A DNA stretch of 64,000 nucleotides, from NCBI RefSeq assembly GCF_014199445.1, contig NZ_JACIJS010000004.1, forward strand, positions 248,001 to 312,000, written 5' to 3'. Origin of the DNA: Rubricella aquisinus (GTDB taxonomy: Bacteria > Pseudomonadota > Alphaproteobacteria > Rhodobacterales > Rhodobacteraceae). The position numbers were made by a program, and so were the translations under genes. Below the pieces are notes generated by a model, which saw only the letters and a program-made list of their open reading frames with translations, was not told where the DNA came from and did not search any database. Below are positions 7,963 to 41,696 of this stretch, piece after piece; within the stretch, counting starts at the first letter, position 1; each line of letters begins with the position of its first letter.

Positions 7963-8072
7963 GGACAGAAACCTTCATTTAAGCTGCACTGCAACATTGC
8001 TTTTTCACAAGAGATCGGCCATGAGGCCCGCATCACCAATTCCACTCTGTAGAAAAACCCAGGCCCGCTGTC

Positions 8073-9776
8073 ATGAACCTCGCCCACGCCCCTCTCCCAG
8101 AACTCTACGTCTCCCCCGATAGCGCATCCAAGCTCAAGCTGGAAGCGGCTGATCTGCCGTCATGGGATTTGACCGCACGGCAGGTCTGCGATCTGGAGCT
8201 GTTGATGAATGGCGGGTTCAACCCGTTGCGCGGCTTTTTGAGTGAGGCGGATTACGACAGCGTGGTCGAAACGATGCGCCTGACGGATGGGTCGCTGTGG
8301 CCGATGCCGATCACGCTCGATGTGACGGAGAAATTCGCCGAAGGTGTTGCGCCCGGTCAGGATATCGCCCTGCGTGACCCGGAAGGGGTGATCCTCGCGA
8401 TCCTCTCGGTCTCCGACAAATGGGTGCCGAACAAGGCGCGCGAGGCGGAGAAGGTGTTTGGCGCTGACGATCTGGCGCATCCGGCGGTGAACTATCTGCA
8501 TAACGTTGCGGGCAAGGTGTATCTTGGCGGGCCGATCACCGGCATTCAGCCGCCCGTGCATTACGACTACCGCGCCCGGCGCGACACGCCGAACGAGCTG
8601 CGCGCCTTTTTCCGCAAGATGGGCTGGCATCGGGTTGTGGCCTTCCAGACCCGCAATCCGTTGCACCGCGCGCATCAGGAACTGACCTTCCGCGCCGCGC
8701 GGGAGGCACAGGCAAACCTGTTGATCCATCCCGTCGTCGGCATGACCAAGCCTGGCGATATCGACCATTTCACCCGCGTGCGCTGCTATGAGGCGGTGCT
8801 GGACAAATATCCGGCCTCGACCACCTCCCTCAGCCTGTTGAACCTTGCCATGCGCATGGCAGGCCCGCGGGAGGCCGTGTGGCACGGGATCATCCGCAAG
8901 AACCACGGCTGCACCCATTTCATCGTGGGCCGCGATCACGCCGGACCGGGCAAAAACAGTCAGGGCGAGGATTTCTACGGCCCCTATGACGCGCAGGACA
9001 TGTTCAAGGCGCATCAGGACGAGATCGGCATCGAAATGGTCGATTTCAAACACATGGTCTGGGTGTCGGAGCGGGCGGAATATCAGCCCATCGACGAGGT
9101 GCAGGAGGGGCACACGGTGCTCAACATCTCCGGCACGGAACTGCGCCGCCGCCTGCAAGAAGGGCTGGAAATCCCTGAATGGTTCTCCTTCCCCGAAGTG
9201 GTCGCGGAATTGCGCCGCACCAAGCCCGCACGCTCAAAGCAGGGCTTCACGCTGTTTTTCACGGGCCTCTCCGGCTCCGGTAAATCCACGATTGCGAATG
9301 CGGTCATGGTCAAGCTGATGGAGATGGGCGGCCGCCCGGTGACGCTGCTCGACGGTGACATCGTGCGCAAAAACCTGTCTTCCGAACTGGGCTTCTCCAA
9401 GGAGCACCGCGATCTGAACATCCGCCGGATCGGTTATGTCGCGTCCGAGATCACAAAGAATGGCGGGATTGCGATCTGCGCACCCATTGCGCCCTACACC
9501 GCCACCCGCCGCGCCGTGCGTGAGGAGATCGAAGCGTTTGGCGCGTTCGTCGAAATCCATGTCGCGACCTCCCTTGAGGAATGCGAAAAGCGGGATCGCA
9601 AAGGGCTCTATAAGCTCGCGCGCGAAGGCAAGATCAAGGAATTCACCGGTATCTCTGACCCTTACGAGGCGCCCGAAAATCCCGAACTGCGCCTTGATAC
9701 CGCCGGGCTTGAGGTGGATTACTGCGCGCAACAGGTGATCCTGAAGCTCGAAAGCCTTGGCCTGATCGCGGCGTAA
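8073..9776 (+). CDS. Bifunctional sulfate adenylyltransferase / adenylylsulfate kinase (Sat-CysC)
   Basis: A 567-residue fusion catalysing the first two steps of sulfate activation: ATP + sulfate to APS, then APS + ATP to PAPS. The ATP sulfurylase part has QTRNPLHRAH (192-201) and GRDHAGPG (about 287-294). The C-terminal APS kinase has the P-loop GLSGSGKST (about 398-406), LLDGDIVRKNL and the FTGISDPYEAP segment. It is the homomeric ATP sulfurylase type, not CysDN. It faces a SulP transporter that could supply sulfate. The start follows a short untranslated stretch without an obvious strong ribosome site. Confidence 0.95.
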   Translation: MNLAHAPLPELYVSPDSASKLKLEAADLPSWDLTARQVCDLELLMNGGFNPLRGFLSEADYDSVVETMRLTDGSLWPMPITLDVTEKFAEGVAPGQDIALRDPEGVILAILSVSDKWVPNKAREAEKVFGADDLAHPAVNYLHNVAGKVYLGGPITGIQPPVHYDYRARRDTPNELRAFFRKMGWHRVVAFQTRNPLHRAHQELTFRAAREAQANLLIHPVVGMTKPGDIDHFTRVRCYEAVLDKYPASTTSLSLLNLAMRMAGPREAVWHGIIRKNHGCTHFIVGRDHAGPGKNSQGEDFYGPYDAQDMFKAHQDEIGIEMVDFKHMVWVSERAEYQPIDEVQEGHTVLNISGTELRRRLQEGLEIPEWFSFPEVVAELRRTKPARSKQGFTLFFTGLSGSGKSTIANAVMVKLMEMGGRPVTLLDGDIVRKNLSSELGFSKEHRDLNIRRIGYVASEITKNGGIAICAPIAPYTATRRAVREEIEAFGAFVEIHVATSLEECEKRDRKGLYKLAREGKIKEFTGISDPYEAPENPELRLDTAGLEVDYCAQQVILKLESLGLIAA

Positions 9777-29779: not shown

Positions 29780-30655
29780 CTAGTCCGGCAATAAGCCTTC
29801 AAGATAGGCCGCGTAAGGGCTGCCCGCGAGCTTCGCGATTGCGGCCCGCAGCCCTGCCGCGTCGATCAATCCCTTGCGATAGGCGATCTCCTCCGGGCAG
29901 GCGATCTTGACCCCTTGCCGGCGTTCCAATGTGCCGATGAAGGTGGCCGCTTCCAACAGGCTGTCGGGCGTTCCGGTGTCGAGCCACGCATAGCCGCGCC
30001 CCATCTGCTCCACATGCAGTGCGCCATCGGCAAGGTAGCTGCGGTTAAGATCGGTAATCTCCAACTCCCCGCGCGGGGAGGGGGTGAGCGTGGCGGCGCG
30101 TGCTGCCGCCGTGCCGTCATAGAAATAGAGCCCTGTCACCGCCATATTTGAGCGGGGGCTTGTGGGCTTTTCCTCCAGCGTCGTGGCCCGGCCTGAGGCG
30201 TCGAGCGTGACGATGCCGTAGCGATCGGGGTCCGCGACGCTATAGCCGAACACGGTCGCGCCGCCCTCTGTCTCGACCCGCGCGCGCGCACGGGCGAGCA
30301 TCTCCGACAGGCCTTGCCCGACGAACAGGTTATCGCCAAGGATCAGGCAGGACGGCTCCTCCCCCACAAACGCGGCCCCGATCGTATAGGCTTGCGCCAG
30401 GCCGCCCGGGTCGGGCTGCTCGGCATAGGTCAGGCGCAGCCCCCATCCCGCACCGTCCCCCAAGAGCGCTTCAAACGCGGGCCGGTCATGCGGTGTGGTG
30501 ATGATCAGCACCTCCCGAATATCCGCGAGCATCAGAACGCTCAGCGGGTAATAGATCATCGGCTTGTCATAGACCGGCATGATCTGTTTCGAGATGGCCT
30601 GCGTCATCGGCCAAAGCCGCGATCCGGTGCCGCCTGCCAGAATGATGCCCTTCAT
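29780..30655 (-). CDS. rfbA: Glucose-1-phosphate thymidylyltransferase
   Basis: 291 residues. The nucleotidyltransferase signature is GIILAGGTGSRLWPMTQAISKQ followed by PVYDKPMIYYPLSVLML, and LEEKPTSPRSNMAVTGLYFYD is typical. It makes dTDP-glucose from dTTP and glucose 1-phosphate. It follows rfbB with a 93-bp gap; no rfbC or rfbD is present, fitting a 3-amino-6-deoxysugar route with the FdtA/B/C-like genes at 32794-34809 rather than dTDP-rhamnose. Confidence 0.95.
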   Translation of the reverse strand: MKGIILAGGTGSRLWPMTQAISKQIMPVYDKPMIYYPLSVLMLADIREVLIITTPHDRPAFEALLGDGAGWGLRLTYAEQPDPGGLAQAYTIGAAFVGEEPSCLILGDNLFVGQGLSEMLARARARVETEGGATVFGYSVADPDRYGIVTLDASGRATTLEEKPTSPRSNMAVTGLYFYDGTAAARAATLTPSPRGELEITDLNRSYLADGALHVEQMGRGYAWLDTGTPDSLLEAATFIGTLERRQGVKIACPEEIAYRKGLIDAAGLRAAIAKLAGSPYAAYLEGLLPD

Positions 30656-30748: not shown

Positions 30749-31795
30749 CTAACGCGTGACGCCCAATCGCGCGCCCGCATAGCGCGCCTGCAAGGGCTGC
30801 CACCAGTCCACGTTCTCCAGATACCAACGGATCGTCGCACGGATGCCGTCAGCAAAGCCATGGTGCGCATGCCAGCCCAAATCCTGCTCCAGCCGGGTTG
30901 GATCAATGGCATAGCGCGCGTCATGGCCGGGTCGGTCCTCGACAAAGGTGATCAGCCGATCATGCGGCGCGGCCTCTGGCCGGAGCGCGTCCATTTCCGC
31001 GCAGATGGTTCTGACGACATCAATATTGCGCCGCTCATTGCGGCTGCCCACGGTGTAGGTCGCGCCGATCTGGCCTTGTGCTGCAATGAGGTCAAGCGCG
31101 CTTGCGTGATCCTCCACATGCAGCCAGTCGCGGATATGCTCCCCCGTGCCATACACCGGCAGCGCGCGCCCCGCCGCGGTGTTCAGGATGGTGAGCGGGA
31201 TCAGCTTTTCGGGGAATTGATAGGGGCCGTAATTGTTCGAGCAGTTTGAGATCATCGCCGGAAAGCCATAGGTCCGCGTCCATGCTTTCACGAGGTGGTC
31301 CGACGCGGCCTTGGACGCTGAATAGGGGGAGGATGGGTCATAGGCGCTGTGCTCGCTGAATGCGCCCTCCGCCCCGAGAGAGCCATAAACCTCATCGGTA
31401 GACACATGCAAAAACCGAAACCGCGCCTGCGCAGCACCCGGCAGCTTGTCCCAATAGGCGCGGGCGGCCTCCAGCAGCACATAGGTGCCGGTCACATTGG
31501 TGGAGATAAACGCCCCCGGCCCGTCGATGGAGCGGTCAACATGGCTTTCAGCGGCCAGATGAAAAACGCGGTCCGGCTGGAAGGAGGCAAACACGTCCGC
31601 AACCGTGCCGGCATCGCGAATGTCACCTTCGACAAAGCGGTGGCGCGGGTGCGGATCAACCCCGCGCAGGGACGTGCGCGTGCCCGCATAGGTCAGCGCA
31701 TCCAGCGTGCAGACCTCATGCCCTGCGCCCACCAGCCTGCGCACCAGCGCTGATCCGATAAAACCGGCACCTCCTGTTACGAGCATTCGGGTCAC
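30749..31795 (-). CDS. rfbB: dTDP-glucose 4,6-dehydratase
   Basis: 348 residues. Rossmann motif GGAGFIGSALVRRLVGAG (6-23), the STDEVYG active-site segment with Asp-Glu, and YSASKAASDHLV (YxxxK). It converts dTDP-glucose to dTDP-4-keto-6-deoxyglucose, the substrate of FdtA/QdtA-type ketoisomerases. It lies on the same strand as the operon from 41432 but is separated from it by an opposing glycosyltransferase gene. Confidence 0.95.
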   Translation of the reverse strand: MTRMLVTGGAGFIGSALVRRLVGAGHEVCTLDALTYAGTRTSLRGVDPHPRHRFVEGDIRDAGTVADVFASFQPDRVFHLAAESHVDRSIDGPGAFISTNVTGTYVLLEAARAYWDKLPGAAQARFRFLHVSTDEVYGSLGAEGAFSEHSAYDPSSPYSASKAASDHLVKAWTRTYGFPAMISNCSNNYGPYQFPEKLIPLTILNTAAGRALPVYGTGEHIRDWLHVEDHASALDLIAAQGQIGATYTVGSRNERRNIDVVRTICAEMDALRPEAAPHDRLITFVEDRPGHDARYAIDPTRLEQDLGWHAHHGFADGIRATIRWYLENVDWWQPLQARYAGARLGVTR

Positions 31796-31910: not shown

Positions 31911-32807
31911 ATGGCGCAGGCAGAGCGGGTCACTTTCATAGTCATGGCCTATAATCAGGCCCCCGTAGTGGCGGAGGCCGTGCAATCGGCGCTCGATCAG
32001 GATTATGAGAACCTGCAAATCATCCTGTCTGACGATTGCTCCACCGATGAGACATTCGATGTGATCCGATCGGTCGTGGCGGGGTATGATGGCCCGCATG
32101 ATGTGGAGGTGAACCGCACGCCCCGTAACCTTGGCATCGCGCCGCATGTCAATCTGATGTTCGAGAGGGCCGAAGGCGCGCTTGTGGTGTTGCAGGCGGG
32201 CGACGATATCTCCACTCCCGACCGCGCGCGCAAACTTCATGCGGCCTATGTGGAGGGCGATGCAGAGGGCACGGCGCGCCCGATGATCGTGTTCTCCGAC
32301 ATGGTCGGCATGACCTATGACGGTCATGTGGGCGACTATATCGTCACCAATGTCGAGATGCGGCGCATGGGCCTGTTTCGCATGGCCATGTCCCATTATG
32401 GCATCGTCGGGGCGGTCGCGGCCTATAACCCGGAGATATACCACCGCTTTGGCCCGCTCAGCGTGCCGGGCATCGCGGAGGATCGGGTGTTTACCTTTCG
32501 GGCGTTTCTGGCGGGCACGATCAAGCATGTGCCCGAACCGCTGGTGTTTCACCGCGATGGCGGGATCAGTGACCTCAATCCGCACCAGATCAAGGGCGCG
32601 CATCAGGGGATGCGCGCGCTCAACCGGCTGAGCCTCTTGCGCGACAAACGGCAAAGCCTGATCGACAGCAATACCTATTCCCCCCGGCCCCGAAAAACCC
32701 GCAAATGGCTGGAGGACAAAATCCGACAGCTTGAGGCACAGGTGGCCGATGACATCGCGGCCGGTCTCACGCCGCCTGAGGCGCTGGACGACCTTAGGGG
32801 CGCGTGA
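31911..32807 (+). CDS. Glycosyltransferase family 2
   Basis: 298 residues. GT-A core [40 protein letters not shown] with the first Asp pair, then [10 protein letters not shown] as the DxD-like motif. No membrane segment. It is the only rightward gene in the surface-polysaccharide locus, divergent from rfbB and overlapping the 3' end of the FdtC-like gene by 14 bp. It likely transfers a sugar in assembly of the glycan made by this locus. Confidence 0.88.
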
Positions 32808-33267
32808 CCGCCCGCGCGGGATTGCCGACCACGGTTTGCCCCGGCGCGACATCCCGCGTCACCACCGCGCCCGCACCGATCATAGCACCCGCACCGATCG
32901 TGATCCCCGGCAGCAGGACCGCGCCGCCACCGATGGAGGCACCCTTGCCGATATGGGTTTGGGGGAAAGCCTGCGCCGCGCGCGCTGATCCACGCGCGCT
33001 TTTGGGATAGGGATCATTGGTCAGCGTCACATTCGGCCCGATGAACACATCATCCCCGATGCGCATCCCGTCATATAGCGACACGCCGTTCTTGATCGTC
33101 ACGCGGTCCCCGATCACAACATCGTTTTCGATAAAGCAATGGGAGCAGATGTTGCAATCCCGCCCGATTGTGGCGCCCTTCAGGACGACGCAGAATTGCC
33201 AGATCGTCGTGCCCTCCCCGATGGCATCGGCCTGAACATCGCTCAACGGGTGAAATGTCGTGCCCAT
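32794..33267 (-). CDS. FdtC/QdtC-like sugar N-acetyltransferase
   Basis: 157 residues of left-handed beta-helix ([34 protein letters not shown]) with [10 protein letters not shown], resembling dTDP-3-amino-3,6-dideoxyhexose N-acetyltransferases. It would acetylate the amine made by the neighbouring aminotransferase using acetyl-CoA. Gene product start at 33267 (ATG). Last gene of the operon; its 3' end overlaps the opposing glycosyltransferase gene. The exact sugar (Qui3N or Fuc3N) cannot be told here. Confidence 0.85.
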
Positions 33268-33286
33268 CACTGGCTCCCTTTATCTG

Positions 33287-34384
33287 TCATGTGGCGAAAA
33301 AGCGGTGCAGGCTCGCGATCACCCTGTCGGTCTGCGCATCGGTCTGATGTGGCCCGATGGGCAGGCTCAGCACCTCCTGCGCCAACGCGTCGGCCCGGGG
33401 GAGCGCGGGCCATTGATCGCCTGCATAGGCGGCTTGGGCGTGGCAGGGGATCGGGTAATGCTGGATCGTCTCGATCCCGTCCTGTGCCAGATGGCGCGCC
33501 AGCGCGTCCCGCTCGGCAGCGCGCACCACATAAAGATGCCAAGAGGATTGCGCCCAATTCGGCATGTGCGGAAGCCGCAGCAAATCGCCGGGCAATTCGG
33601 CGTCATAGCGTGCAGCGATCCGCGCGCGCCGTGCGTTCCACGCCTCCAGATGGTCGAGCTTTACCCGCAGCAGCGCCGCCTGAAGCGGGTCGAGTCGCGC
33701 ATTCAGGCCCTGCTCAAGATGCTTGTATTTCTCCTCCGCCCCATAGTTGCCGATCCGCCGCATCCGCGCGGCAAGGGCGGGATCATTGGTGGTCACGGCC
33801 CCCGCATCGCCAAAAGCGCCAAGGTTCTTGCCGGGATAAAAGCTCCACGCGGCGGCATGCCCATGCCCCCCGATACGCTGCCCGCGATAGAGCGCACCAT
33901 GGGCCTGCGCCGCGTCCTCCAGCACCCAAAGCCGGTGCTCCTGAGCCAGCGCCATGATGGGATCCATGTCACAGGGCATCCCGTAAATATGCACCGGGAT
34001 CACCGCACGGGTGCGCGGGGTGAGGGCCGCCGCGATCCCGTCGGCGTCAATCGTGAACTGTCCTTCCGCCGGATCGACCGGCACGATGGTGGCTCCGGTC
34101 TGACTGACGGCAAGCCATGTGGCGACGAAAGTATGCGCGGGCACGATCACCTCATCCCCCGGCCTGACCTCCATCGCCATCAGCGCCAGCCGCAGCGCAT
34201 CCAGCCCGTTGCTGACACCCACGCATTGCGCCGTTCCGCAAAACCCGGCGAAGGCCTGTTCAAACCCGGTGACCTCCGCCCCGCCGATATACCGGCCCGA
34301 GGACATGACCCGCGCCATCGCCGCATCAAGTGCGTCGCGCAACTCAGCCGTTCCAGCGGTAAGGTCAAGGAAAGGGACGATCAT
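33287..34384 (-). CDS. DegT/DnrJ-family sugar aminotransferase (FdtB/QdtB-like)
   Basis: 365 residues, type I PLP fold. The PLP lysine is in SFYPGKNLGAFGDAGAV; also the motifs NGLDALRLALMAMEVRPGDEV and VHIYGMPCDMD. It would install the 3-amino group on dTDP-3-keto-6-deoxyhexose, using glutamate. ATG overlaps the FdtA-like stop by four bases (34381-34384), so it is translationally coupled. Confidence 0.9.
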   Translation of the reverse strand: MIVPFLDLTAGTAELRDALDAAMARVMSSGRYIGGAEVTGFEQAFAGFCGTAQCVGVSNGLDALRLALMAMEVRPGDEVIVPAHTFVATWLAVSQTGATIVPVDPAEGQFTIDADGIAAALTPRTRAVIPVHIYGMPCDMDPIMALAQEHRLWVLEDAAQAHGALYRGQRIGGHGHAAAWSFYPGKNLGAFGDAGAVTTNDPALAARMRRIGNYGAEEKYKHLEQGLNARLDPLQAALLRVKLDHLEAWNARRARIAARYDAELPGDLLRLPHMPNWAQSSWHLYVVRAAERDALARHLAQDGIETIQHYPIPCHAQAAYAGDQWPALPRADALAQEVLSLPIGPHQTDAQTDRVIASLHRFFAT

Positions 34385-34809
34385 GACGCGGACACGGCCT
34401 CCAGATACGCCGCATGATCGCGGAAATAATCGGCCTCGTCATAGGGCAGGGAGGCCAGAACGAGGCACACCGCGCCTTCGGAAAATCCGCCCAGATCGCG
34501 CCAGATCATTGGCCCTACATAAAGCCCCTGATCCGGGCGGGACAGCTCAAACCGCCGCGATTGTTGCCCATCGGAGAGGGTGATCTCAAACCGTCCGGCC
34601 ACCGCGATGATAAGCTGTTCCAGCGCCTTATGACCATGCGCGCCACGGGTCACCGCTGGCCCAAGGTCATAAAGGTAATAGACCCGCGCGATGTCGAACG
34701 GGACATGCCGTTGCCCTTCGACAAAGCTCAGCGCACCGCGCGCGTCGCTCACCCGTGGCAGGTCGATCAGATGGCACGCATCCAGCGCGGGACGGGCGGG
34801 GGCAGTCAT
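34381..34809 (-). CDS. FdtA/QdtA-like dTDP-4-oxo-6-deoxyhexose 3,4-ketoisomerase
   Basis: 142-residue cupin. The family signature DARGALSFVEGQRHVPFDIARVYYLYD and RGAHGHKALEQLIIAVAG (His pair in the active site) are clear. It isomerises the 4-keto product of RfbB to a 3-keto sugar. FdtA and QdtA differ in stereochemistry at C4, so Fuc3NAc or Qui3NAc could result. Its ATG overlaps the cytidylyltransferase stop by four bases, joining the amino-sugar module to the phosphoramidate module in one transcript. Confidence 0.88.
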   Translation of the reverse strand: MTAPARPALDACHLIDLPRVSDARGALSFVEGQRHVPFDIARVYYLYDLGPAVTRGAHGHKALEQLIIAVAGRFEITLSDGQQSRRFELSRPDQGLYVGPMIWRDLGGFSEGAVCLVLASLPYDEADYFRDHAAYLEAVSAS

Positions 34810-35531
34810 GGGCGTCCCCCCTCATAGGCCGCGAGATCGGAGATGGAATCGACCTCCCCCCACGGATGATGGTTCGGCACTGCCCCGATGGCCACGCGCC
34901 CGCCCTCCAGCACCATCTGAAGCGCGCTGGTCATATCAAGCCGGTCGCGCGCCGCAGCATTCATGCCCGCGCGCAGGCGATGCACTTCGGCCCAGCCTTC
35001 AGGACGAAAATGCAACAGACCCATATATTGCCCCTCGATCTCATCCGTGTGGTGGGCCTGTTTGCCGATCTCGGCCAATTGCCCATCTGGGGTCAGCTTG
35101 AAACTCTCCGCGTCCTCCAGCGGGTCGTCAAATCGCGCGGCCCAAATCTCAAGCCAGTTCGGATCATATGTGATGGCAATCGGCTCTGGCGCGTGTGACA
35201 GGGCGCTGACGGCCTCCGGCGCATAGAAGATATCGGAATAACTGATCAGGCATGGCCCCTCCGCCAACCATGCCTCCGCTTGCGCTAGCGAGGCGACCAT
35301 GTTCGTCTCTGCCCAGCGGGGATTGTGGAACACGCGGTCGGCATGGCCTTCGATCAGCGCCGCGCGGTAGCCCGTGACAATGCCAAGCTCCGTCACGCCT
35401 GCCGCGCGCAGCGCTTCGATCTGATGAAACAGCAAGGGCTTGCCGTCCAATGGCACCATGCATTTCGGCTTTTCATCCGTCATCTGCTGCATACGGCTGC
35501 CGCGCCCGGCGGCAAGGATGATCGCTCTCAT
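34806..35531 (-). CDS. LicC-like cytidylyltransferase; candidate CTP:phosphoglutamine cytidylyltransferase
   Basis: 241 residues: MRAIILAAGRGSRMQQMTDE, then KPKCMVPLDGKPLLFHQIEAL, a nucleotidyltransferase core of the LicC type. LicC itself makes CDP-choline; no choline kinase is nearby. In the C. jejuni capsule locus the equivalent protein (Cj1416) uses CTP and L-glutamine phosphate to make CDP-L-glutamine. Next to a PEP-synthase-like kinase and an amidotransferase-like hydrolase, that role is the best inference here. The ATG at 35531 overlaps the hydrolase stop by four bases; the extended frame upstream is rejected. Confidence 0.75.
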   Translation of the reverse strand: MRAIILAAGRGSRMQQMTDEKPKCMVPLDGKPLLFHQIEALRAAGVTELGIVTGYRAALIEGHADRVFHNPRWAETNMVASLAQAEAWLAEGPCLISYSDIFYAPEAVSALSHAPEPIAITYDPNWLEIWAARFDDPLEDAESFKLTPDGQLAEIGKQAHHTDEIEGQYMGLLHFRPEGWAEVHRLRAGMNAAARDRLDMTSALQMVLEGGRVAIGAVPNHHPWGEVDSISDLAAYEGGRP

Positions 35532-36130
35532 GAAAAGACCTTTCTGAACAGGGCGATGTCCTGCGGATCGGGGCGTGCCTCTCGCTCCGGGTGCCACATG
35601 ATGCCGCTCATGGCTCGGCCTTCTGCCGCGATGGCCTCGACCGTGCCGTCCTCCGCGACTGCGGCGGGGCGAAAGCCGGGGATCGGGCCCGTGATGCTGC
35701 TGGCGTGATAGGAATTGACCGTGCCGTCCCGCCCGGTCACCGCATGGCGGGTCGCGACATGGCCCGCGACCCCGGTCAGGCTGGCACCCGCCCAGATCGC
35801 CATCATCTGCATCCCCCGACAAATGCCGAGCACCGGATGCCCCTCGACGCCCGCCCAGTCAAGGAGTGCCCGCTCGGTCTCATCGCGCAGGGGGGTCGCA
35901 CCCGGATCGTCCCCGCCGGTCAGCAAAAGGCCATTGATCCCCCAGTTTGTGCAATAGGCGGTGATCCGCTCCGCACCCAAATTGGGCAGGGGCATCCACG
36001 GAGTGCCAGGCAGGGCTGCGGCCATGAACCCGGCCCAATCCTGCGCCAGCGCATCGCGCGGCTCCTCATAGCCGGGGGCGGAGACCTGACGCATGGTCAG
36101 CCCGATACGATATGGCGCCCTATCTGCCAT
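35528..36130 (-). CDS. Class I amidotransferase-like hydrolase; candidate gamma-glutamyl-CDP-amidate hydrolase
   Basis: 200 residues. Catalytic triad is visible: Cys104 in GICRGMQ, His180 and Glu182 in MWHPERE. The fold is that of gamma-glutamyl hydrolases (PuuD-like) and lacks a synthetase partner domain. In C. jejuni, Cj1417 hydrolyses CDP-L-glutamine to cytidine diphosphoramidate and glutamate, and it belongs to this same family. Positioned between the kinase and the cytidylyltransferase as in that locus. The ATG overlaps the upstream gene by 11 bp. Confidence 0.75.
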   Translation of the reverse strand: MADRAPYRIGLTMRQVSAPGYEEPRDALAQDWAGFMAAALPGTPWMPLPNLGAERITAYCTNWGINGLLLTGGDDPGATPLRDETERALLDWAGVEGHPVLGICRGMQMMAIWAGASLTGVAGHVATRHAVTGRDGTVNSYHASSITGPIPGFRPAAVAEDGTVEAIAAEGRAMSGIMWHPEREARPDPQDIALFRKVFS

Positions 36131-38504
36131 GGACGGGCCGAATGATCTTTTCCGCGCAGTTCAGTTCAACCTGCGCTGCGGCGGCGATCCGCTCAAACAC
36201 CTGATCGCCACAGCCGATGGCGGCAGGCACGCCCAGTTCGGCACAGCGCACCGCCATATGTGAGTTCATACCGCCGAACCGGGTGACAAGGGCCGCCGGT
36301 CCTTTCGCGAAAATCCAGTCAAATCCGGGATCGGCATTGCTGATGCACACGATGCGCCCACGAATATCCGCGCCCGGCGGGCTGTCGGCTGAGATATGGC
36401 TCACTGTGCCAACCACCCGACCCGAACCAACGAAATTCGGCACAGACCGGTTGAGCGTGGCCACATAAATATCGCCCGGCGCGGTGATCAGATGCGGCAG
36501 GCGGATGGTCGCGGCATCCACCATGTCTTGCCGTCGCGCATTGGCGATGGGCAGGAAATGCCGGTCGAGGTCTTCTAGCACGGGGGTATGGGTCAGATCG
36601 GCAATCTCAGGCCAGCGCAGGAAGGATACATCATCGGCGGACAAGCCGTTGCTCAGCCCCCAGTGCCGCAGATGCAACAGCGCGTCCGACAGGGCGCGGG
36701 TGAAGATGAATTTCACGTCCTCTCGCGCGGCAATCGCCCGCGCCGCATAGTCAAAAAACGCCTCAGCCGTCAGCACATCAAGCCCCGCCTCGCTCAAGAG
36801 GGAGGACAGCGCCGCGTGCTCCGCGTCCGTGGCGGTGAACGTCGCGACATGCGCTGCCATCGCGGCGGGCTTGTCGGCAAACAGATCCTCCCGCTCGTCA
36901 TAGCGCAGCGAGGTGACGTCATAGGTGCCGGGCCGCAGGTGACCATAACGGGCAAAGAAATCGGGCTGCGTCATCTGCCCGTCATGCACAGCCTCGAAAT
37001 CCGCCATCATGGTGCTGGAATAGGTCTGGATCGCGCGCCGGAACTGGGCCAGTCGGTCGGCGCTGAGCGCCCCGCGCGCCACGGCTGACCGCAGCAGGCT
37101 TTCCGCGATAAAGGCATGGCGCGCGGCCTTGGCAAAGGGGCGGGTGCCATGGCTGCGACAGGCATTGATGAGCCGCACGGCATGACCCAGATGCGCGGCC
37201 CCGTCTCCGTCGCCGCCACGCGGCGCGGTGTGATGAAGCAGCGTTTGCGCCTCTGCAATCGCGCGCTCAAGACCCGCCCGCGCCGGGTCCAGATTATCGC
37301 GGGTCAGCGCAATCAGCGCAGCGCGGTAGTCGTCAAATTCTTGCGGGGCAAGCAGGCCGGGATAGCGCGCCTGAAACTGCGCGTCGAAATCGAAGCTCAT
37401 GCAGGTCGGCACGATCTCGAACTCGACCTTGTCATGAAATTCCGGCTGCGCCTTGAGCCGCGCGATCCACGCATCCACCAGCACCGCACCCGTCGTATCC
37501 GCCAGCCCGGCTGGCAGGAACGAATTAAAGCTCGCCCGCACGTCGATAAAGGGATGGGTATGCAGCACCGTCATCAGTGGCGTGCGCGGCAGCGCGCGAT
37601 AGCCCATCTCCGCGCGGGCCTCATGCCAGACATGCCCGGTGATCAGATCGTGATAGAGCGAGGTCGCAAGCGGGCGCGGCGTGGTCCCGATGATCTCCGC
37701 CGGGTTCCAGTCGGGCATCACGCCATAGGCCGTCCCTTGCCCCAGCAGCCCCGGTTGCGGCGCGAATGCGCGCGTCAGATGCGCCTCCAGATGTGCCAAT
37801 TCGCGCCGCACGCGCCGCTCGATCACCGGGTGCCAATGCCGCGCCAGAACGATGCGCCGCACTTGCAACAGCACCAGATCGCCACCCCGGGTCATGCAAA
37901 ATTCGATGTCGAGTGCTGCGGAGCCTGTGATGGCCTCCAACTCCCGCGCCAATGCGATGAACCGCGCCACGCGCTCCGATTTCAGGGCCGCAGGGGCGGT
38001 GTCGCGATGCACATAAAGGCTCTTGTGCACGCCCGTGCCGCTTGTCACCACATCCGGGCGTCCGGTTTCATCATCGAAATCGAGCCGGTAATAGGGCGCG
38101 CCACTGGCCATGTCGAAGGTCATGATGACCCCGCTCACGGCGATATCCCCGATCATGGGCTGCACAAGGATCTGATCCCCGTCCCGCGCGGTCATGGAGG
38201 CGCTGACCTGATCCATCGCTTGCGCCAGCTGTGCAGGATCATCGGTAGGCACATCAAGAAGGCTGAGAAAGGCACCCGCCATGGAGCTTTCGGCGGCGTC
38301 CTCGCTCAACGCGCTTGACCGGACGGCCAGCCGCTGCCCGGCAAAGCGCGCGGCAATCGCGGCCAGCACGCCGTCCCGGTCCTTCACCCATGCGTCGCGG
38401 CGGGTGACATGGACCGGCGGCACCATCGCCGTCGTCACAAGTGGCGCCAGCAGAGCGAGCGTTTCGGCTTTGGTCCCGAAGGTGAAGCGAGGCGTGTCAG
38501 TCAT
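36120..38504 (-). CDS. PEP-synthase-like phosphotransferase; candidate L-glutamine kinase
   Basis: 794 residues. The N-terminus is an ATP-grasp-like PPDK_N domain (about 55-230; AVRSSALSEDAAESSMAGAF; VLLQVRRIVL) and the C-terminus a swivelling phosphohistidine domain with GGMNSHMAVRCAELGVPAAIG, the catalytic His being residue 749. There is no C-terminal PEP/pyruvate barrel, so it is not a PEP synthase. The middle (about 240-640) has no motif I know. This layout equals that of C. jejuni Cj1418, which phosphorylates the amide nitrogen of L-glutamine, and of rifampin phosphotransferase. The neighbours favour the glutamine kinase reading. Confidence 0.78.
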   Translation of the reverse strand: MTDTPRFTFGTKAETLALLAPLVTTAMVPPVHVTRRDAWVKDRDGVLAAIAARFAGQRLAVRSSALSEDAAESSMAGAFLSLLDVPTDDPAQLAQAMDQVSASMTARDGDQILVQPMIGDIAVSGVIMTFDMASGAPYYRLDFDDETGRPDVVTSGTGVHKSLYVHRDTAPAALKSERVARFIALARELEAITGSAALDIEFCMTRGGDLVLLQVRRIVLARHWHPVIERRVRRELAHLEAHLTRAFAPQPGLLGQGTAYGVMPDWNPAEIIGTTPRPLATSLYHDLITGHVWHEARAEMGYRALPRTPLMTVLHTHPFIDVRASFNSFLPAGLADTTGAVLVDAWIARLKAQPEFHDKVEFEIVPTCMSFDFDAQFQARYPGLLAPQEFDDYRAALIALTRDNLDPARAGLERAIAEAQTLLHHTAPRGGDGDGAAHLGHAVRLINACRSHGTRPFAKAARHAFIAESLLRSAVARGALSADRLAQFRRAIQTYSSTMMADFEAVHDGQMTQPDFFARYGHLRPGTYDVTSLRYDEREDLFADKPAAMAAHVATFTATDAEHAALSSLLSEAGLDVLTAEAFFDYAARAIAAREDVKFIFTRALSDALLHLRHWGLSNGLSADDVSFLRWPEIADLTHTPVLEDLDRHFLPIANARRQDMVDAATIRLPHLITAPGDIYVATLNRSVPNFVGSGRVVGTVSHISADSPPGADIRGRIVCISNADPGFDWIFAKGPAALVTRFGGMNSHMAVRCAELGVPAAIGCGDQVFERIAAAAQVELNCAEKIIRPVHGR

Positions 38505-38569
38505 CGCGGCGGCAGTCCTTGGCTCATTCTGGCCCTTTGTGCGACAAATGCTGTGCGGCGTCCATTGTT

Positions 38570-39829
38570 CTAAGGCGCTGAGATTTGCGCTCTCGTGCCA
38601 CTGAGCGCCATCAATGCGATATGTTTCAGGATCGGATGGATCACATAATAAACGCCCTCTGGCCCCTCCGTGGGCTGTGGTGTCAGGTGATCCGCGCCAT
38701 GCCGCGCGATCTCACCCACGATCCGCCCCATCAGATCGGCCCGGATGCTCGCGTCATAAAGCCGGTCCACATCCATGCCTGACGCGGGAATGGGATAGCT
38801 TTGCCGCGCCAGCACCGGCCCCGTGTCAATCTGGGGGTCAAGCCAGATCGCGCTGACAGCGGGCGCCTGTCCGTTCAGCAACGCGTAGTAAAGCGTGGTG
38901 GAGCCGCGATACTCCGGCAGCGACCCCGAATGCAGGTGCAAGAAGCGCACACCGCATTCCAGCGTCTCTTTCGACACGATTTGCCCGCCCAACCCGGCAT
39001 AGAGGGTCACGCCACCCCCCTGTCGGCGCAGCACGTCCCGCACCGCCGGGTCGTTCACATCGGGCGCGGCGATCCGAGTGACGGGAATGCCCGCGCGGGC
39101 ACAGGTGGCGGTGGCAGGCTCGGACAGGTCGGGCAGGAACACCCCGTCCCAGTTTTGCGGGCCGCTGGGTAGCGCGGCGGGCCCGTCCTCCCCCAGAAAA
39201 AGGACATACTCGGGGATCAGGCCCAGCATGACGAGCCGCTGGATATAGGCCCGCGCCCGCGCGCTGGCACAGAGGATCGCGGACAAGCCGGGGATCACCC
39301 GTGCGGGCGCTGGCGCGGCCTGCCACGGAACGGGCGCAAAGGGTCGGAGAGGCGGCAGCGCCACCCTTTCCGCAAGTGCCCGGATCAATCGCTGCTCCGC
39401 CACGCGCCCGTCCTTGGGCAGATGACCAAGTGCTGTCAGCGTGTCATTCACCTTAAGGAGCGTATTGAGATACCAAAGCTGGCCCGTCCGCTCATAGGCG
39501 CCAGCCAGCCGGTCGGCAAATAACCGGTAGCTTTTCATATCCTCAAACCGCGTTGTATCGACCGCTCGCCATGACGGCAGATAGTCATCATGGAGCCGCT
39601 TGGTCACCTCAAAGCGCTGCACCAGTTTGTCGAGCGTCGCGGTGTCCAGTGGGCCGGAAAGGCGCTGCCGCGTCGGCGTCGCGTCATGCGGTGGTGGGGG
39701 GGCATCTTGCGCCCCGGCGCGCGCCGATAGCCACGCGTCGAATGTCGCCTGCCCATGAAAGGCGCTGTAGAAATAGGTGTTGCGCTCATGCAGCAAGCGG
39801 CCGCTGGCATAGGGGTAGATCGTGCTCAC
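38570..39829 (-). CDS. Formyltransferase-like protein with an uncharacterised N-terminal domain
   Basis: 419 residues from a GTG overlapping the kinase stop (GTGA). Residues 1-175 form a domain I do not recognise (VTKRLHDDYLPSWRAVDTT, MKSYRLFADRLAGAYERTG). From about 177 a formyltransferase fold follows: LHLHSGSLPEYRGSTTLYYA with His300, and IDTGPVLA with Asp335. The usual Asn of the Asn-His-Asp triad is His298 here, so the chemistry may differ. In C. jejuni two methyltransferases (Cj1419, Cj1420) sit in the corresponding place. It may formylate or otherwise modify the phosphoramidate or the amino sugar; this is inference. Confidence 0.75.
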   Translation of the reverse strand: MSTIYPYASGRLLHERNTYFYSAFHGQATFDAWLSARAGAQDAPPPPHDATPTRQRLSGPLDTATLDKLVQRFEVTKRLHDDYLPSWRAVDTTRFEDMKSYRLFADRLAGAYERTGQLWYLNTLLKVNDTLTALGHLPKDGRVAEQRLIRALAERVALPPLRPFAPVPWQAAPAPARVIPGLSAILCASARARAYIQRLVMLGLIPEYVLFLGEDGPAALPSGPQNWDGVFLPDLSEPATATCARAGIPVTRIAAPDVNDPAVRDVLRRQGGGVTLYAGLGGQIVSKETLECGVRFLHLHSGSLPEYRGSTTLYYALLNGQAPAVSAIWLDPQIDTGPVLARQSYPIPASGMDVDRLYDASIRADLMGRIVGEIARHGADHLTPQPTEGPEGVYYVIHPILKHIALMALSGTRAQISAP

Positions 39830-40341
39830 AGTGCCGCCCGCGCGATGATCTGCTCTGCGAGCTTGGCGAGATCGGGCGTGTCCCCGCTGGATGCGATGAC
39901 CATATCCGGGTGTTCGGGCCGCGGAAACGGGATGTCGATCCCCACGACCTCCCCGGCCTCTCCCCGTGCCGCGCGCGCATAGAGACCTTTGACATCGCGC
40001 GCCTGTAACACCTCTATCGGGGCATCCATGAACACTTCGAAATAGCGGCTGAACCGGGTGCGGTTGGCGGCTTGCATATCGGGGAAGAGCGACAGGATGC
40101 AGCACACCACATGAATGCCCTGCCGATCCAGCATCTCGCACAATGCCGTGATCCGCTCCGCATTCCGCCGCCGCCCTGCGACCGTGTAGGCGTCCTTGTC
40201 GCGATCAGCGGCGAAAACCGCGCGCAACTCGTCCCCATCAAGGAATACGGTGTTGGCGTGGCGGGTTTTCAGGCGATCATACACTTCCCGCCCCAAGGTC
40301 GTCTTGCCTGAGCCGGATAATCCGATGAACCAGAGGATCAT
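39826..40341 (-). CDS. CysC-like kinase; candidate cytidine diphosphoramidate kinase
   Basis: 171 residues: P-loop GLSGSGKTT (7-15), FLDGDELRAVF, GRRRNAERI, and a C-terminal ADPI-like GIDIPFPRPEHPDMVI. It looks like APS kinase, but sulfate activation is already covered by the Sat-CysC fusion at 8073. C. jejuni Cj1415, annotated as an APS kinase, actually phosphorylates the 3'-hydroxyl of cytidine diphosphoramidate. Fixed position in this operon supports that role. The ATG at 40341 has AAAGGGA upstream; both ends overlap neighbours by four bases. Confidence 0.78.
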   Translation of the reverse strand: MILWFIGLSGSGKTTLGREVYDRLKTRHANTVFLDGDELRAVFAADRDKDAYTVAGRRRNAERITALCEMLDRQGIHVVCCILSLFPDMQAANRTRFSRYFEVFMDAPIEVLQARDVKGLYARAARGEAGEVVGIDIPFPRPEHPDMVIASSGDTPDLAKLAEQIIARAAL

Positions 40342-41432
40342 GGCGCGGTCCCTTTCGTCAGCCAGCTTCTGTCTATCAGCGCGCGGGCCGCGTGCTGGGC
40401 GGCTGTGCCCTGATGCGGCGCGAAATACCGCGCGCTTTGGTCCGCGCACGCCGCGCCATGCGCAGCCCATGTCGCGTCATCCTCCAACACCCCACGAATG
40501 CCCCGATCCGATGCGCCGACATGGCGAAAGACCTGCCGCAATCCGATATCGCTGGAGTCCGGGCCCGTGAGCGTATCCGCCGCCGCTTGTGGGACATCAA
40601 GCAGGATAAACCGTTTGCCCGCATAGATCGCACCAAAAGCCGGGCCACCATAGTCAAACAGCATAAAGTCGGCCAGTTGGTAGAGGGGGATGTTGTCCTC
40701 TGCCGTCTCAATCAGTCGCGTAAGGGGGAGCGCTCGCAATGAGGCTATCCTGTCCGGCTCGCTTTGTGGCATCAGGGGATGCACTTTCACCACCACATTG
40801 TAATCGGCGCACAGTGCTGCAATCTCATCGTTGAACAGCCCGACGGAGGACAATTCCAGCCATGTCGGCAGCCACACGATGGTCCGCTTCGCCGGATCGC
40901 AGCCAAACCGATCATAGAGCGCGGGCATATCGGGGGTTTCTGTGAAATAGCGGTCAAAGCGCGGGAAGCCCATTTCATAGGTCGGCAGGCCGTAGCGGGC
41001 TTTGAACGCCCCCGCATGATAGGGGCCAAAGCACAAAATCCCGTCATAGATCGTGTTCCACGGCGCGAGGTTATGCGCACTTTTCCCGGCGGCATACATA
41101 AAGCGGATATTCTCCACCGCGAGGCTGTGGAGCAATCGGCCATTGCGCTGGGCGATGAAGTGATTGGTCACAAGGCAGCGGTATTTCTGACCCAGATTGC
41201 GGATCCGGCGCTGTTTGATCACGCCGCAGCCCCATGCGGCGCGTTGCTCAGGCGTGATGGTGATCGGCTCGCGATGGGTCAGGATATCAAACGCGGCCCC
41301 CGCTCGCGCCAGCGCGTCAAACACCGGGGCGTAATGGTTGATCAGTTCTTGCGTGTGCACAAGAAAGGCCAACCGCTCAAGGATGGTGACGGGGGACTGT
41401 TCGGCTTCCATCTCGATTTGGGTTTTCCTCAT
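40338..41432 (-). CDS. TagF/CDP-glycerol glycerophosphotransferase-like transferase
   Basis: About 364 residues, first gene of the operon. A GT-B-like architecture with VWLPTWLELSSVGLF, the VVVKVHPLMPQSEPD segment (His for the phosphotransferase active site) and a C-terminal FMLFDYGGPAFGAIYAGKRFILLD resembling TagF's acceptor/donor site. Such enzymes use CDP-activated donors; here a CDP-phosphoramidate derivative is an attractive donor. No membrane segment. The start may be ATG 41432 or 41411; no strong ribosome site is seen for either. Confidence 0.72.
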   Translation of the reverse strand: MRKTQIEMEAEQSPVTILERLAFLVHTQELINHYAPVFDALARAGAAFDILTHREPITITPEQRAAWGCGVIKQRRIRNLGQKYRCLVTNHFIAQRNGRLLHSLAVENIRFMYAAGKSAHNLAPWNTIYDGILCFGPYHAGAFKARYGLPTYEMGFPRFDRYFTETPDMPALYDRFGCDPAKRTIVWLPTWLELSSVGLFNDEIAALCADYNVVVKVHPLMPQSEPDRIASLRALPLTRLIETAEDNIPLYQLADFMLFDYGGPAFGAIYAGKRFILLDVPQAAADTLTGPDSSDIGLRQVFRHVGASDRGIRGVLEDDATWAAHGAACADQSARYFAPHQGTAAQHAARALIDRSWLTKGTAP

Positions 41433-41609: not shown

Positions 41610-41696
41610 TGGTGCCCGGGGGGGGACTCGAACCCCCACGATCGTTAGATCGGCGGATTTTGAATCCGCTGCGTCTACCAATTCCGCCACCCGGGC
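41610..41696 (-). tRNA. tRNA-Leu (anticodon CAA)
   Basis: On the minus strand the 87-nt sequence begins GCCCGGGTGGCGGAATTGG, has the anticodon arm GCGGA-TTCAAAA-TCCGC (anticodon CAA), a long variable arm of the leucine type, GGTTCGAGTCC in the T arm and encoded CCA. The acceptor stem GCCCGGG/CCCGGGC is perfect. It lies upstream of the surface-polysaccharide operon, on the same strand; no direct repeat suggesting an attachment site was noticed. Confidence 0.95.

Follow-up and report, generated by a model that had tools for sequence, protein, structure and literature searches.

A stretch of 64,000 nucleotides from Rubricella aquisinus (contig NZ_JACIJS010000004.1, positions 248,001 to 312,000; hereafter the window) carries on its minus strand an operon that very probably encodes the chemistry of cytidine diphosphate (CDP)-amidate, with a candidate L-glutamine kinase (Q), a cytidylyltransferase (N), a gamma-glutamyl-CDP-amidate hydrolase (H) and a CysC-like kinase (K). 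The same operon encodes a fusion protein, C15-F, in which a domain of an unnamed family (C15) is joined to a formyltransferase-fold domain (F), and a TagF-like protein (T). With somewhat less assurance, we favour the view that the operon makes a phosphoramidate donor which is placed on a small surface glycan, in a C15-F variant of the O-methyl phosphoramidate (MeOPN) pathway. Living systems seldom use P-N bonds, and the conserved extra protein pair of this operon suggests a new chemical version of that pathway. An earlier note on this DNA, made from its letters and open reading frames, had placed a CDP-amidate pathway of four gene families at 34806-41432, and all four are indeed found there on the minus strand. 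The end of that range is the start codon of T, yet neither T nor C15-F was mentioned in the note.

Q (36120-38504, 794 amino acids) is matched over its full length (residues 3-791) by NF004508 with 853 bits, against a cut-off of 501; this model (PRK05849) is labelled only 'hypothetical protein' in NCBIfam. The Pfam scan gave PPDK_N and the mobile phosphoenolpyruvate (PEP)-utilizers domain and no match to the PEP barrel, as expected for the PEP-synthase-like kinase without a barrel that had been described, and this PPDK_N match is the only one in the whole genome. His749, singled out in the earlier note, stands in a GGxNSHM motif which is invariant in an alignment of 20 relatives, as is the RSS..ED motif near residue 62. 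A better match to rifampin (rifamycin) phosphotransferase, which had been named as evidence against the pathway, was not found (41 bits against a cut-off of 999), and Q reached at most 50.5 bits with the models for PEP synthase and other PEP-utilising enzymes; both identities were rejected.

H (35528-36130, 200 amino acids) is a stand-alone class I glutaminase-like protein of the amidotransferase type, and the triad proposed for it (Cys104, His180 and Glu182) was confirmed by position. Its top NCBIfam match is NF045546, the gamma-glutamyl-CDP-amidate hydrolase model, with 90.5 bits, the next family reaching 35. The same model ranks first for all three H proteins scanned, the other two being those of loci L062 (122.5 bits) and L057 (104.9 bits). 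N (34806-35531, with ATG at 35531 and a frame open to 35822), a candidate CTP:phosphoglutamine cytidylyltransferase, belongs to NTP_transf_3 (PF12804, 66 bits) and is LicC-like as had been stated, LicC (1jyk) being its third PDB sequence match. A LicC with choline genes, the other finding that would have spoken against the pathway, was rejected, since LicD has no match anywhere in the window's own genome; among the operon proteins the Pfam scan brought up no choline gene. K (39826-40341, 171 amino acids), a candidate CDP-amidate 3'-kinase, is a CysC-like member of the APS_kinase family, with 159 bits to NF004041 (cut-off 127). With the apsK equivalog TIGR00455 it scores 114.1 bits, under the cut-off of 138.7, and the stretch that follows its DGD motif is unlike that of the window's own Sat-CysC. 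This Sat-CysC, pointed out earlier as making an adenosine 5'-phosphosulfate (APS) kinase role for K redundant, is real, with an APS-kinase-like domain in frame 8025-9773. As K is below the apsK cut-off and Sat-CysC is separate, a role of K as the APS kinase of the sulfate pathway was rejected. Among the PDB molecules listed as matches of Q, H, N and K, none bears the name of a MeOPN enzyme.

Linkage of these genes across genomes supports the proposal that the chemistry of C. jejuni operates here. A scan of GTDB species gave at least 588 pattern matches, at least 540 of them confirmed as kinase relatives; the best 80 were kept, chosen by likeness to the query, and the locus set is not a random one. 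Altogether 87 loci were analysed (the window, L037, L056-L061 and L062-L141 minus L101, a duplicate of L056), from taxa that include Methylotenera, Zoogloea, Pseudomonas, Aeromonas, Alteromonas, Desulfovibrio, Verrucomicrobia, a Planctomycetota bin, Cohnella, Bacteroidetes and bins of Nano- and Pacearchaeota. Clear profile matches to H were found in 73 of the 87 loci and to N in 75 (clean N profile); at least six loci lacking H or N (L082, L093, L094, L117, L119 and L131) end in Q or less than 1 kb from it. Where at least 5 kb are present on each side of Q (54 full-flank loci, window included, with genes counted within 6 kb), 51 of the 54 have both H and N. A set chosen less selectively consists of the 16 places, other than the window, from genomes of the same family or phylum, with 1.5-kb flanks; here H and N lie near Q in the same 13. 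The linkage of Q, H and N is not due to chance. The set of three is also carried by contigs labelled as Nanoarchaeota and Pacearchaeota (L135 and L137), as K-MT5-Q-N-H, MT5 being a methyltransferase family described below.

Genomes with a kinase above the NF004508 cut-off numbered two of 295 in the window's family, each genus being represented by a single genome, and 15 of 398 in the phylum, the window's genome included, and 15 plasmid records match this model, six of which were examined. On a plasmid of Cupriavidus taiwanensis (L061, 9893-12256) a relative of Q lies in a stretch with nifK and nifD, in which H, N and K were not found. The kinases of L037, L057, L058, L129, L132, L136, L138 and L139 bear over about their first 250 residues a domain related to N (50-113 bits, clean N profile); judging from the sequences, this N-terminal nucleotidyltransferase-like domain appears to be a natural fusion to Q. 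K was not found in any of these eight loci.

It could be argued that the Q-H-N trio works on a different N-phosphate or nucleotide conjugate, so that the product is no glycan phosphoramidate at all. Phosphosugars and phosphocholine are likewise substrates of COG1213 cytidylyltransferases, and CpgD takes phosphoglycerate (PMC12275187); H stays under the NF045546 equivalog cut-off (90.5 against 250 bits); and on a plasmid of Agrobacterium vitis (L060, 9926-15012) the genes after Q-H-N encode LysE and a CDP-alcohol phosphatidyltransferase, with K not found and no glycan gene annotated in the stretch. For this plasmid it is possible that the trio serves a small-molecule or lipid phosphoramidate. 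For the operon studied here, however, we regard this explanation as very improbable, in view of the linkage of the three genes across loci, of NF045546 ranking first for each H scanned, and of the 4-base overlaps which tie the window's operon to sugar genes.

The nearest known system is the MeOPN pathway of C. jejuni (Cj1415-Cj1418, with transferases Cj1421 and Cj1422), described in PMC11800397, PMC6429109 and PMC9561416. There too the four enzyme families stand beside surface-glycan genes, and the Campylobacter-type arrangement, with the four core families in one operon together with glycan genes, is found in the window. The claim that exactly these families occur in both organisms is thus right for the four genes but too wide for the pathway as a whole: in the window C15-F and T stand beside the core, the K-linked methyltransferase families MT5 and MT8 have no match between 28001 and 44000, and the sugar suggested by the neighbouring genes is a dTDP-amino-6-deoxyhexose instead of heptose or GalfNAc. 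According to PMC11800397, deletion of Cj1421 and Cj1422 led to loss of MeOPN from GalNAc and heptose, whereas no function is assigned to Cj1419 or Cj1420.

In C. jejuni the single enzymes act in the order Cj1418, Cj1416, Cj1417, Cj1415. For the organism studied here we infer a corresponding course in every reaction, and the acceptor sugar as well, what C15-F does chemically being the most conditional part. Q, of the Cj1418 type, would phosphorylate L-glutamine and hand the product to N (Cj1416 type), which would join it to cytidine monophosphate; H (Cj1417 type) would remove glutamate to leave CDP-amidate, with its H2N-P group; and K would phosphorylate the ribose 3' hydroxyl of CDP-amidate. 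C15-F would modify either 3'-phospho-CDP-amidate or the phosphoramidate after its attachment, in the place where other loci use an S-adenosylmethionine-dependent methyltransferase. T would move the group to a sugar of the deoxythymidine diphosphate (dTDP) route, the predicted work of the RmlA-like, RmlB-like, FdtA, DegT and hexapeptide acyltransferase proteins encoded downstream.

Occurrence of such a pathway outside Campylobacter is not wholly new, since phosphoramidate without methyl is reported in the lipopolysaccharide (LPS) of Xanthomonas campestris and Shewanella (PMC3907429), and a MeOPN-type cluster was proposed by structural analysis for the archaeal Borg elements (PMC12660748). The Borg cluster belongs to an archaeal extrachromosomal element, and C15-F is absent from the passages on that cluster in this source. 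A 2022 review called the glutamine kinase 'C. jejuni-specific' and stated that the group can exist with and without methyl (PMC9561416). Against that label stand kinase relatives in at least 540 stretches of GTDB species and the 51 full-flank loci in which both other core enzymes are present. Among the literature matches listed, titles and starts of abstracts held nothing on this operon or on a formyltransferase in phosphoramidate synthesis; nor were the breadth of occurrence, the C15-F partner or the link between K and modifier genes met with in them. These loci offer candidates for the role of the 3'-phosphate on CDP-amidate, for a cap other than methyl and for the enzyme that moves the group to the sugar, be it TagF-like or sulfotransferase-like, the functions of Cj1421 and Cj1422 having been assigned from mutants.

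The presence of K is closely associated with that of a gene which could modify the phosphoramidate. Among the 54 full-flank loci, K is present in 42, C15 or F in 23, MT5 in 12 and MT8 in nine; C15-F, MT5 or MT8 accompany K in 38 of 42 loci, as against one of the 12 K-negative loci with a modifier (Fisher 1.6e-7). L059 was counted as negative for both K and modifier, which lie just outside the 6-kb limit. The association persists when descent is taken into account: on a FastTree tree of the kinase (86 rows, the short L111 left out), 14 independent pairs differed in the same direction in a mean of 10.8, in the opposite direction in 0.1 and showed no difference in 3.0, with a median p of about 0.001. 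As for the four K loci devoid of these modifier families, L089 has another methyltransferase, L128 has a protein of the SGNH-like family X adjoining K, in L130 X precedes K as two pieces, and L140 gives a weak match to X at another place. None of the 61 K loci holds both C15-F and MT5, which occur in 32 and 18 of them, respectively (22 and 12 of the 42 with full flanks, again with no overlap).

Family X comprises proteins of about 415 amino acids with SGNH-like GDSY and GGH motifs (identified by eye), encoded directly after K in loci without C15-F (L107 14237-15550; L110 14488-15732; L124 12881-14122; L128 12743-13963; L095 14323-15636). The idea that X is a diverged C15-F was rejected, the profile comparison giving a probability of 0.1%.

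C15-F itself (38570-39829, with GTG as start codon and a 4-base overlap with K) consists of C15 at about residues 1-160, which has no Pfam match, and of the formyltransferase-fold domain at about 175-419. The latter matches PF00551 with 30.4 bits (cut-off 26.1), and its fold resembles those of FMT, ArnA and GART (Z 13-14); C15 gave no match in the fold comparison of the model, which is not by itself a sign of a new fold. N10-formyl-tetrahydrofolate formyltransferases of PF00551 use an Asn-His-Asp catalytic triad. In the window's protein the corresponding residues are His298, His300 and Asp335, and in all 33 tight relatives of F the triad reads His-His-Asp: as in the PF00551 enzymes FMT, ArnA, GART and QdtF/FdtF, the His and Asp and an LP-containing loop are kept, whereas Asn is replaced by His and an HPxLKH motif is added (IHPILKH at 397-403 in the window), each in 33 of 33, and the domain is fused or coupled to C15. 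The other formyltransferase-like proteins at the loci (n=17) have Asn in ten, His in three, Gly in two, Val in one and a gap in one. The F consensus retains an LP...GSTT stretch that resembles the formyltransferase folate loop; the residue before LP is mostly W, and a pattern with L or Y there matches eight of the 33.

The two halves of the fusion evidently travel together. Tight F occurs in 33 loci and so does C15, the loci being the same except for L064 and L108. In 29 relatives each they are encoded in frames of their own, four proteins (window, L062, L063 and L079) are C15-F fusions, and in L098 and L109 C15 is fused to K. In the phylum, C15 was found in two of 398 genomes, both among the 15 of 398 that are Q-positive (seemingly the same genome draw); in the order of genome G404 it was found in one of 48 genomes (G404 itself, Q-positive and already among those two), with Q present in eight of the 48. 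We think it probable that C15-F acts in the phosphoramidate branch. What it does there is much less certain, and our leading single guess, a tentative one, is that C15-F adds a formyl group from folate as the cap. In the form of this idea that we set out here, also doubtful, the folate-dependent enzyme would formylate the phosphoramidate (P-NH-CHO or P-O-CHO) on 3'-phospho-CDP-amidate, and the 3'-phosphate placed by K would be the handle for capping, which is why K would be mostly missing where there is no capping gene. If so, bacteria as distant as Pseudomonas and Cohnella would have a surface phosphoramidate with a non-methyl one-carbon cap.

An alternative to the view that we favour, and a rather unlikely one, leaves the core unchanged, with Q, N, H and K leading to 3'-phospho-CDP-amidate, and lets C15-F N-formylate an amino sugar of the acceptor, the phosphoramidate staying uncapped. 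It agrees with the formyltransferase fold of F, whose matches include the dTDP-amino-sugar formylases FdtF (Z 11.3) and QdtF (Z 11.1), with the FdtA and DegT amino-sugar genes inside the operon, and with the LPS phosphoramidate devoid of O-methyl mentioned above. Nevertheless, a hexapeptide acyltransferase to serve the amino group is already encoded in the window, the catalytic Asn is His in every tight F, two loci have a fusion of C15 to K, and FdtA is present in only 15 loci as opposed to 33 for tight F. Moreover, seven loci encode, beside F, a formyltransferase of another cluster, in which Asn is kept in six (the seventh is not covered at that position); its sole Pfam-scanned member (L063:4267-5460) has ankyrin repeats. 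Because of this second family, it is probably not F that formylates the sugar in those loci, and the idea that F is the only sugar formylase was rejected.

Several points weigh against the proposed pathway with C15-F as its modifier, in addition to the score of H below its equivalog cut-off. Campylobacter loci are absent from the best 80 of at least 540 kinase stretches; with no Campylobacter sequence among the loci, homology to Cj1415-Cj1418 is argued from family models and gene linkage. The mutual exclusion of C15-F and MT5 is not significant on the tree (2.6 of 7 pairs informative, median p 0.25), so that it may reflect descent. C15-F and MT8 occur together in six loci, which weakens the notion that F replaces methylation, and in L095, L107, L110 and L124, where C15-F is missing beside MT8, it is X that adjoins K; as X takes the place of C15-F next to K, C15-F could serve a different step. 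Among the 16 less selected places, K is found in four, MT5 in three, both in one and C15 in none; the link between K and modifiers receives no support there, nor can it be judged there, because the 1.5-kb flanks are too short. Finally, the structure model of F is of moderate quality (pLDDT 75.2), and with His in place of the catalytic Asn, F may no longer transfer formyl.

Another possibility is that C15-F is an accessory or transferase unit for the transfer of 3'-phospho-CDP-amidate and no one-carbon enzyme, T being an ordinary glycosyl- or glycerophosphotransferase. The shared position of C15-F and X after K, in different loci, would fit such a role, and the change from Asn to His argues for altered chemistry. 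T13, a TagF-like distant relative of T, is found in six K-negative loci, all without tight F, although three of them (L136, L138 and L139) encode a protein more weakly related to F, at 134-148 bits. We consider this improbable, more so than formylation of the amino sugar, because the folate-loop-like stretch is retained in F, its fold gives no hint of phosphotransfer, and T has a TagF fold.

T (40338-41432, 364 amino acids, with ATG at 41432 and a frame open to 41594) is a TagF-like (GT-B) phosphotransferase and a candidate phosphoramidate transferase. It scores 26.8 bits with PF04464, above the Pfam gathering score of 22.1, and no PDB sequence matched it at E 0.1. The AlphaFold2 model of residues 5-364 (pLDDT 90.9) has TagF 3l7i as its top PDB match (E 5.9e-12, TMq 0.65), with TarL lower. 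TagF and TarL teichoic acid polymerases use CDP-activated donors. By its modelled structure T is thus a TagF-fold enzyme, the donor being a prediction; it differs from the polymerases in its short length, in an identity of about 13% over the fold alignment and in its linkage to genes of the CDP-amidate type. T was found with a clean profile in 18 of the 87 loci, all 18 having C15 or F (as two frames in L111), and it precedes K in the locus maps. The T13 member of L037 stays at 18 bits with PF04464, below the cut-off.

Other K loci encode sulfotransferase-like proteins, with PF13469 in L089 (13774-15081) and PF00685 in L084 (13840-15090). The former has relatives in L068, L083, L092, L103, L109, L135 and L137, and K is present in seven of the eight loci with this type, L083, on a contig of 7.4 kb, being the one without it. 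Since 3'-phospho-CDP-amidate resembles 3'-phosphoadenosine 5'-phosphosulfate, a sulfotransferase-like enzyme could recognise it, and by this analogy such proteins may be candidate phosphoramidate transferases that read the 3'-phosphate of CDP-amidate.

From the tRNA-Leu (caa) gene at the upstream edge of the cluster (41610-41696, minus strand; ARAGORN and Rfam RF00005), the minus-strand order is T, K, C15-F, Q, H, N, FdtA, DegT, hexapeptide acyltransferase, RmlB-like and RmlA-like. The genes had been said to overlap mostly by 4 bases, which is true for five junctions (T/K, K/F, H/N, N/FdtA and FdtA/DegT), while Q and H overlap by 11 bases and a gap of 65 bases separates F from Q. The sugar genes on this strand are those of an FdtA-type dTDP-sugar ketoisomerase (34381-34809; PF05523, 160 bits), a DegT-family sugar aminotransferase (33287-34384; PF01041, 365 bits), to which we ascribe the role of FdtB with no NCBIfam model over its cut-off among the matches listed, and a hexapeptide acyltransferase (32794-33270; PF00132, 94 bits) with a presumed FdtC-like N-acetyltransferase role, whose top NCBIfam match, NeuD_NnaD, is below cut-off. 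They are followed by an RmlB-like dTDP-glucose 4,6-dehydratase (30749-31795) and an RmlA-like glucose-1-phosphate thymidylyltransferase (29780-30655), both named by eye from their translations and not by profile. A family 2 glycosyltransferase (31911-32807; PF00535, 72 bits) lies on the plus strand.

Between 28000 and 42500, tRNA was the sole Rfam family above its gathering score, and a search of the window for an island end, with up to three mismatches allowed, did not turn up the 3' end of the tRNA-Leu a second time. Past the tRNA-Leu, the genes scanned are seemingly unrelated (HNH, MOSC, an esterase and others). Among these is a gene of a dimethylsulfoniopropionate lyase family (PF16867, 48145-48810), which fits a marine origin of the genome. 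A flagellin gene lies near the operon in L062 (18964-19779, identified by scan) and, by similarity, in L067, L073 and L079, so that in these loci the glycan may sit on flagella; the flagellin of the window's genome is encoded on another contig.

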